DNA of 43,417 bases from Flavobacteriaceae bacterium (GTDB taxonomy: Bacteria; Bacteroidota; Bacteroidia; Flavobacteriales; Flavobacteriaceae). A model generated the notes under the pieces. The model saw nothing but the letters and a program-made list of their open reading frames with translations. It had not been told where the DNA came from and searched no databases. The position numbers were made by a program, and so were the translations under genes. Positions 8,975 through 40,615 of this stretch are shown one piece after another (positions within the stretch are counted from its first letter, which is position 1; every line of letters begins with the position of its first letter). Location of the stretch: contig CANHRI010000016.1 of the NCBI GenBank assembly GCA_947463515.1, forward strand, positions 1-43,417, read 5' to 3'.

Positions 8975-8975
8975 A

Positions 8976-9006
8976 AAAAAGAGTGTCTCGGCCGGATACT
9001 CTTTTT
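8976..9006 (+). terminator. Intrinsic terminator after the sigma/barrel operon
   Basis: The 12-bp stem AAAAAGAGTGTC (8976-8987) and GATACTCTTTTT (8995-9006), with one G-T pair, encloses the loop TCGGCCG. The 3' arm ends in a T-run, so this is a good intrinsic terminator. Confidence 0.85.
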
Positions 9007-9017
9007 GTTTGCGTTAA

Positions 9018-9085
9018 GGATTGTAGTGGAAATCCCGGCGCCGTAGTTTACGGAGGTGCCGGATTGCAACGGAAAGCCTGACCCC
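9018..9085 (+). repeat. GC-rich intergenic element, copy 1 (possible structured RNA or REP-like repeat)
   Basis: This is the first of three related copies (others at 22379-22441 and 40486-40530, both on the minus strand). It holds two related 18-mers matching GGATTGNANNGGAAANCC, at 9018-9035 and 9061-9078. Between them is a hairpin: CCGGC (9035-9039) with GCCGG (9058-9062), enclosing CCGTA (9041-9045) with TACGG (9049-9053). It lies in the convergent space between the barrel gene and plsC copy 2, and is more GC-rich than the adjacent sequence. It has no open frame of note. Confidence 0.6.
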
Positions 9086-9107
9086 GGAAGTATGGAGGGG
9101 GAACGCC

Positions 9108-22341: not shown

Positions 22342-22378
22342 ATACGGCAGCAAGAACGTTGTGCCCCGTTACACGCGC

Positions 22379-22441
22379 GGTCCCGTCATCCGTTTCAATC
22401 TGCTCCGCTGCGCTCCACAGGATTTCCACTACTACCGGGGC
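22379..22441 (-). repeat. GC-rich intergenic element, copy 2
   Basis: On the minus strand TAGTGGAAATCC (22431-22420) matches copy 1 exactly over 12 bases. A different inner hairpin region, rich in GAGC and GCGGAGC, follows. Then comes GATTGAAACGGA (22400-22389), one base different from copy 1, and GGACC. GCCCCG (from 22363) and CGGGGC (22436-22441) could close the whole element with an outer stem. The rest of the gene-free stretch 22342-22516 shows nothing else I can name. Confidence 0.6.
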
Positions 22442-22516
22442 TGTATCGGCGTTTTATTTTCAAAGAGGAATAAATATAGTGCTTTTTTACAATAAGCGCT
22501 TTTTAAACGCTGCTGC

Positions 22517-29863: not shown

Positions 29864-29921
29864 GTAATTAGTAATTAGTGACTAGTGATTAGCTAATTAC
29901 TAATCACTAGTTACTGTTCAC
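29864..29921. repeat. Heptamer array folded as an inverted repeat between atpA and atpG
   Basis: The left half reads in 7-base units GTAATTA, GTAATTA, GTGACTA, GTGATTA. After GC, the right half reads TAATTAC, TAATCAC, TAGTTAC, TGTTCAC. The halves are near-perfect reverse complements over about 22 bases (three transition differences, each allowing a wobble pair in one strand). The transcript can form a strong hairpin between the two cistrons. Confidence 0.8.
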
Positions 29922-40376: not shown

Positions 40377-40485
40377 AGGTTTTAAGTTTTTCAATTAGTG
40401 AACAAGATAATGTTTTTGTTACAATTGGGGCGGTCCGGCAAATGAACTTTTTTTGTCTATCCACCCACCCCTTGCCGTCGGGTGT

Positions 40486-40530
40486 TCCGCTTCAAGTCCG
40501 CACTCATACTTCGCTTGCGGGCTTTCCCCT
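40486..40530 (-). repeat. GC-rich intergenic element, copy 3
   Basis: On the minus strand GGGGAAAGCC (about 40529-40520), an inner stem CCGCA and TGCGG with an unrelated loop, then GGACTTGAAGCGGA (40499-40486) follow the order seen in copies 1 and 2. It is the most divergent copy. It lies between the divergent starts of the DUF5687 and PaaE-like genes. The whole spacer 40395-40615 is C/G-rich compared with neighbours. Confidence 0.5.
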
Positions 40531-40615
40531 TCACCCCCTACCGCAAATTTACTGCCTGGAACCACATCCTATAAACATCGGCAATTTCTACTCCAAACTT
40601 TTAAGGGAGTCTTCG

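Follow-up and report, generated by a model that had tools for sequence, protein, structure and literature searches.

Flavo-1 in Flavobacterium: a larger, two-subfamily dispersed repeat that is probably mobile

Three copies of a Flavo-1-type element

The window, i.e., the whole 43,417-nucleotide stretch analyzed here, comes from a Flavobacterium draft genome of 2.45 Mb and carries three copies of a repeated element, at 9018–9085 (+), 22379–22441 (−) and 40486–40530 (−). Reading of the sequence bore out the original prediction in these coordinates and in the shared motifs: A 5′ motif (GGAAATCC in copies 1 and 2, GGAAAGCC in copy 3) is followed by a hairpin and then by a 3′ motif (GATTGCAACGGA, GATTGAAACGGA and GACTTGAAGCGGA in copies 1, 2 and 3, respectively). 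The inner stems predicted for copy 1 (CCGTA/TACGG) and copy 3 (CCGCA/TGCGG) are likewise present, as are two half-repeats in copy 1. The true ends lie further out than these intervals, at about 9011–9106, 22348–22446 and 40430–40544.

Copy 1 (9011–9106, +) belongs to what we call the second subfamily and is laid out as a three-way junction. Its outer stem P1 is formed by GCGTT (9011–9015) and AACGC (9102–9106), a pairing that came from a complement test and from DNA folding. Enclosed are the left half GGATTGTAGTGGAAATCC (9018–9035) and the right half GATTGCAACGGAAAGCC (9062–9078), both seen by sequence reading and in the alignment to our model R1, with the variable hairpin between them (9036–9061, from sequence reading and the DNA fold). 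A third arm, P3, follows at 9082–9100, where CCCC (9082–9085) pairs with GGGG (9097–9100). Copy 2 (22348–22446, −) is a member of the first subfamily, with an outer stem of CAGC (22443–22440) and GCTG (22351–22348); the R1 alignment places its left half at 22420–22439 and its right half GATTGAAACGGATGACGGG at 22382–22400. Copy 3 (40430–40544, −) is a probable divergent element on the second-subfamily plan, with the outer stem GCGGT (40544–40540)/ACCGC (40434–40430), a third arm CGGCAA/TTGCCG, and the left half (40520–40538) and right half GGACTTGAAGCGGAACACCC (40480–40499) found by sequence reading and R1 alignment. Copy 1 adjoins a gene of 503 aa, whose named relatives are from F. fontis and two metagenome-assembled genomes (85–88% identity). 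Just upstream of the copy, a terminator-like inverted repeat at 8975–9008 is well conserved in three relatives. Elsewhere in the window, a spacer holds a nearly perfect, AT-rich inverted repeat of 48 bases (29869–29916), which matched an Rfam miRNA family weakly, with 26.9 bits at a threshold of 74.

Weinberg et al. (2010, PMC2864571) described Flavo-1 (Rfam RF01705), which has since then been carried as a structured RNA with no function assigned; among bacterial sRNA families it ranks as one of the most abundant (PMC9029176). The original prediction had raised this family as a guess, and scanning with its Rfam model upheld the guess for copy 1, came close for copy 2 and gave no support for copy 3. 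Copy 1 passed the gathering score of 42 with 45.9 bits (E 7.2e-7, at 9002–9087) and is a Flavo-1 member by score. Copy 2 reached 38.6 bits (E 7.7e-5, at 22446–22375), just below that score, and copy 3 had no match at E ≤ 1. These scores argue that copies 1 and 2 are not chance matches. With R1, which we built from 53 copies leaving out those of the window itself, copy 1 was found at E 4e-11 (9018–9078) and copy 2 at E 2.5e-12, so that by this model copy 2 is a clear relative despite falling under the Rfam threshold. Copy 3 received only 9.4 bits from R1 (E 0.68) and ranked one place below a chance-like match. We nevertheless place it in the group, because it shares the anatomy, i.e., both halves and the outer stem GCGGT/ACCGC, and because it is conserved in F. 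fontis, where its orthologue is 90% identical. Copy 3 is thus probably a divergent Flavo-1 cousin with the same plan.

Inner fold, outer stem and third arm

For a larger view of the fold, we gathered elements through a search for nothing but the two half-sites, leaving their variable positions free and making no use of the fold. This half-site search returned 211 matches, 195 of them distinct (28 from our genome, 52 from the F. fontis clade and 115 from others), and none in a control with reversed sequences on one strand. At the four variable core pairs, 753 of 780 cells were Watson–Crick, with 10 G-U, 3 A-C and 14 other combinations. Core position N6 was AT in 97 elements, TA in 47, GC in 30 and CG in 13, next to 8 AA mismatches, and the Y-R position was CG in 101, TA in 53, GC in 29 and AT in 7, with 5 others. 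The types of the left and the right internal loop, which had been matched independently of each other, agreed in 192 of the 195 elements; the left loop reads GNA followed by G or A and does not sit at the hairpin foot.

The half-sites enclose 163 distinct hairpins. Stems of at least three pairs were present in 176 elements; together they comprise 1623 Watson–Crick, 32 G-U and 7 A-C pairs, and 175 of these stems carry a bulged C. The picture was similar on cluster representatives (877, 16 and 3) and outside our own clade (1228, 17 and 1). In the 53-sequence alignment, 97.7% of cells were paired, compared with 75.7% upon shuffling (0 of 500 shuffles reached the observed value) and 38.7–53.3% in slid versions, and double-change cells numbered 202 versus 60. 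Two conserved half-sites, with GNA/GNA internal loops, surround a hypervariable, nearly always complementary hairpin, and the covarying stems proposed from three copies hold at the scale of 195 elements.

Copies 1 and 3 share the five-pair outer stem and third arm of the second subfamily. Among 34 sequences of this subfamily (11 from our genome and 23 from relatives, many of them orthologous) we counted eight different outer stems. The complement of an element's own left arm lay downstream in 33 of the 34, as opposed to 3 of 238 trials with swapped types; left arms were picked by eye, and the first match for one locus (L018) is an unlikely partner. For the first subfamily, that of copy 2, CAGC is accompanied by GCTG in 11 of 19 sequences, whereas TAGC is so in 1 of 149. 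By this modelling, the outer stem is predicted to close a three-way junction in the second subfamily. The outer stem, the third arm and the second subfamily were found here in addition to the Rfam model, which spans 76 positions and ends at the inner helix; the two half-sites, the internal loops and the variable hairpin are common to both descriptions. Of the terminal inverted repeats that would mark a MITE, only AGC/GCT is seen near the element ends. Three near-identical second-subfamily copies (L023, L024 and L025) lie near contig ends, beside AT-rich tails.

Folded without guidance, copy 1 as DNA adopted the three-way junction of P1, P2 and P3 as its minimum-energy structure (z −2.35, opposite strand z −0.14); as RNA it showed the same outline (z −0.81). 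Copy 2 did not yield the element structure unaided (DNA z 0.79, RNA 0.17, opposite DNA strand 0.87). The modelled strand of copy 3 formed the inner hairpin without the outer stem (DNA z −1.42, RNA −1.34), and its opposite DNA strand folded equally well (z −1.67). Among the three window copies, free DNA folding thus favors the modelled strand for copy 1 only.

Rfam's entry type, "Gene; sRNA", implies another reading. Flavo-1 would then be transcribed, whether on its own as an sRNA or within a 5′ or 3′ UTR, and its fold would bind a protein or ligand. The elaborate fold speaks for this reading, and so does non-Watson–Crick covariation, as seen in the agreement of the loop types. Over all pairs, G-U exceeds A-C in the modelled strand (42 versus 10), which points to folding of one strand and fits RNA as well as DNA. 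At the same time, G-U makes up less than 2% of pairs, and a comparison of orthologues on per-copy folds gave no G-U excess (20 G-U versus 29 A-C). Apical loops are T-rich, and among 144 distinct hairpins a GNRA loop occurred once and UNCG never, which leans weakly to DNA. Together with the placement data given below, we consider a structured RNA unlikely.

Dispersal, placement and stability

The original prediction had staked itself on further genomic copies and on covariation; both were found, the copies in tens by genome-wide search. With the Rfam model, the genome gave at least 48 matches at E ≤ 10, 41 at E ≤ 0.01 and 16 over threshold (150 of 583 first-look candidates scored). Control genomes matched at E ≤ 10 as well in 10 of 14 cases, none of them over threshold. 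R1 returned 46 matches at E ≤ 0.01. Matches at E ≤ 1e-3 occurred in 26 of 40 genomes including our own; of 24 relatives of the same genus, 22 were positive and 20 held ten or more matches, where at most 89 candidates were scored per genome and high counts are hence lower bounds. Two genomes (G018 and G020) had no Flavo-1 and a third (G024) had one, with the Rfam model and R1 alike, and for G002 the Rfam model gave 4 matches and the new one 8. Across the phylum, at least 40 of 296 genomes matched at E ≤ 1e-5, including our own and 17 more from the genus, in a scan with stricter filters that scored 15 candidates per genome. Cargo of phages or plasmids was considered and rejected: The Flavo-1 core matched one viral contig exactly and no phage or plasmid record, with one short query each and hence limited sensitivity.

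With enough flank to judge, 171 of 182 elements lay outside ORFs of at least 90 aa, and 11 overlapped one. Flavo-1 is therefore high in copy number, palindromic and extragenic, as REPs and REPINs are, and it behaves as a dispersed repeat, unlike the sRNA gene that Rfam takes it for. The 171 spacer elements comprise 66 antisense-tandem, 50 sense-tandem, 37 convergent and 18 divergent cases. Antisense placement is as frequent as sense (66 versus 50 in tandem spacers, p 0.16), which does not suit a transcribed RNA. Nor does the promoter analysis: At fixed distance upstream of 118 representatives, no column from −45 to −7 exceeded 0.27 bits, a test that a promoter at variable distance would escape, and conservation sets in with TAGC, four bases ahead of the core. 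A promoter of its own, as an sRNA gene should have, was thus not seen. A study of the F. psychrophilum transcriptome (PMC9723704) reports matches that fall sense and antisense alike, many of them outside transcribed regions, which argues against a consistent strand.

Compared with background spacers of at least 90 bases taken from 20-kb stretches (304 tandem, 56 convergent, 105 divergent), convergent spacers are enriched in elements (37/171 versus 56/465, Fisher p 0.003) and divergent ones depleted (18/171 versus 105/465, p 0.0004); orthologues in the sample mean that its elements are not independent, and simple ORFs stood in for genes. Such a location bias could mean that Flavo-1 is a DNA site maintained by the host at gene ends, where a chromosomal protein would bind it, folded or double-stranded, in the control of supercoiling, replication or transcription end. 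Any insertion tolerated only away from promoters is expected to give the same bias. Further points for a host site are the persistence of the element across species and its substitution rate, which at 5.6% was below that of the remaining spacer (9.0%) and of ORFs (8.6%) over 73 alignments with some overlapping loci. Slower substitution may indeed mean a host function, although a count over the 28 alignments that contain enough spacer has the element slower in 16 and faster in 12. Two genomes of the same genus do without the element and one keeps a single copy by both models, and presence varies at one and the same site, the serA spacer described below. We hence regard a host-maintained site as doubtful, a shade more so than the structured RNA. 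A bias in replication strand looked promising on the best-scoring matches of one genome (G010) and was gone once all 60 were placed on replichores by GC skew (p 0.44).

Immediately downstream of the element, eight bases are A-rich in every gene context (A 0.53–0.72 versus 0.28–0.43 further on, as counted in those elements whose 3′ end is clear, 112 of 171). An A-rich end is what a retroposon comparable to a SINE might leave, if folded Flavo-1 RNA were reverse transcribed and inserted. The G-U excess and the copies lacking a promoter would also agree with this, but an A-rich target would look alike, and neither a target-site duplication nor a 5′ truncation series is in evidence. Retroposition thus appears very unlikely to us. 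In their wider surroundings, pairs of Flavo-1 copies flank single ordinary genes in two relatives (L258 and L259, from G125 and G330) and in our genome (L002 and L018); the enclosed gene we take to be TonB-like in both relatives and ahcY in our genome. Two further copies (L068 and L074) adjoin heptamer-like AATTATG repeats.

Most of our copies are found at the same place in close relatives. Judged by long flanks on one side or both, 36 of 46 have the element at the matching position in F. fontis or another close relative. Targeted retrieval found it in at least one relative for six more (L026, L063, L064, L070, L075 and L077), all six being among the ten copies that had seemed to be missing in F. 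fontis; the region of another of the ten (L073) aligns across in two relatives. A looser spanning test gave 41 of 46 and may include paralogues. Movement must hence be rare. Within 44 pairs of elements that have both neighbor genes in common between species, some entering twice via overlapping loci, orientation was the same in 39 and inverted in 5, representing four spacers. A flip of this kind is another point against a transcribed RNA. The inverted elements differ in sequence, and separate insertions thus cannot be told from inversion in place.

At a single site, the spacer upstream of serA, presence of the element varies. Among 29 species including our own, scored by templates and the new model and with a varying gene before serA, the element is present in 5 and absent in 24, one of which has it at the other end of serA. 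Where present, it is always in sense, which would suit a structured RNA. Related filled and empty spacers differ, by eye, by a block near the element that MAFFT did not align cleanly, and no target-site duplication could be resolved at this site. In the serA spacer of one genome (G062; L341, 2513–2643), the right half of Flavo-1 is interrupted by about 45 bases. The gene next to copy 1 occurs in 60 of 61 genomes; at the 30 loci read, the element stood at that gene end in our genome only, and it is present in the three close relatives. A further palindrome, some 20 bases long (CCTGCCTGCCGGCAGGCAGG or a variant of it), sits inside Flavo-1 after GA, in either half, at six loci (L026, L066, L072, L073, L076 and L077). 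Since at two of these (L026 and L077) the corresponding position in a relative is without it, this palindrome was cleanly gained or lost.

Copying is most evident from near-identical elements. Twelve pairs within the same genome are at least 94% identical, and 11 of them have unrelated flanks, six of these among four copies in one genome (G298). Identity drops 5 nt upstream of the core and fades about 8–14 nt downstream. We regard these near-identical copies at unrelated loci as the main evidence for copying.

Mobility and the question of a partner

The original prediction had left the choice between a structured RNA and a REP-like mobile repeat. The mobile repeat fits better, as orientation is neutral, no promoter motif was seen and near-identical copies occur at unrelated loci; the strict sense of REP, with a RAYT transposase, found no support. 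REPINs consist of two conserved sequences around a spacer and form a hairpin (Bertels and Rainey 2011, PMC3116915). Flavo-1 is alike in being a short, dispersed, non-autonomous unit with two conserved sequences around a middle and one hairpin, and differs in its half-sites, which pair via GNA/GNA internal loops, in its outer stem and third arm, and in that no RAYT partner was found. With GTAG- and CGTC-tagged REPs it shares the palindromic, extragenic, high-copy character, yet as described in PMC3733652 these measure 20–40 bp with the tag at one end, whereas Flavo-1 has 80–120 bases and its GNAG in an internal loop; CGTC-tagged REPs are described there as also lacking a dedicated transposase.

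A different likeness is to the attC sites of integrons, where conserved boxes surround a variable terminal stem, bases are bulged and one strand folds. Flavo-1 may resemble them in these respects and is unlike them in occurring as single dispersed units, not in arrays.

Our genome contains one Y1 match, at 21.9 bits and under the family cut-off, and the palindrome flanking it is not Flavo-1: The RAYT-like gene here, of 195 aa (G000:C29; L031, 1420–2092), is bracketed by inverted copies of GACCTAACAGGTTT, which is likely its own REP; a RAYT of this type is present in 8 of 25 genomes, ours included. Four Flavo-1-bearing genomes (G004, G011, G012 and G016) gave no Y1_Tnp match at E ≤ 1e-3. Beside Y1 genes, the Rfam model found no Flavo-1 (18 of 31 loci), and R1, run on up to 1.5 kb on each side of 42 Y1 loci, some with the same gene, gave three matches at E ≤ 1. 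One is a real-looking copy about 800 bases from the Y1 gene (L047, 20.4 bits), one lies 64 bases away with poorly matched half-sites (L058, 15.3 bits) and one is a poor match (L377, 10.8 bits). At none of the 42 loci did Flavo-1 stand on both sides, i.e., no cognate RAYT gene flanked by the repeat, as known for REPs and REPINs, was found. We hence reject a RAYT as the evident mover, because Y1 genes do not track Flavo-1 and none of the 42 loci has it on both sides; a lost or distant partner is possible. In one of the genomes free of Flavo-1 (G018; L051, 1738–1856), a group II intron domain match lies beside a Y1 match with an internal stop.

We thus see about an even chance that Flavo-1 is a dispersed, foldable repeat of roughly 80–120 bases that is moved in trans as a REPIN-like non-autonomous mobile element, probably as single-stranded DNA. 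From the covarying stems, one strand is predicted to fold into a hairpin closed by the outer stem, and this fold itself might be the substrate of the mobilizing enzyme. Its recognition code could lie in the bulged C together with the internal GNA/GNA loops, which are conserved. The intermediate would be single-stranded DNA, although an RNA form also fits the G-U excess, and the enzyme would act in trans, the way RAYTs are believed to move REPINs. A more far-reaching version we offer tentatively, as a minority possibility: Flavo-1 may be the first known mobile element with a three-way-junction, one-strand substrate, moved in trans by a Bacteroidota enzyme outside the Y1/RAYT family, with the GNA/GNA half-sites and bulged C as the code and the hairpin free to vary. 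Given its persistence, the element might have a host function.

The initial observation is hence real, and in part it had been catalogued already; we re-describe Flavo-1 as a larger element with two subfamilies that is probably mobile. Among the titles and abstract openings listed for Flavo-1, RF01705 and Flavobacterium repeats, none presents it as a mobile repeat; two Flavobacterium genomes appear in a table of RepRanger (PMC12306157). The extended structure should provide a better search model, and the near-identical copies in some genomes are sites for direct tests of movement. If Flavo-1 is mobile DNA, its sRNA annotations mislead, and the spacers of Flavobacterium genomes are strewn with a mobile repeat.
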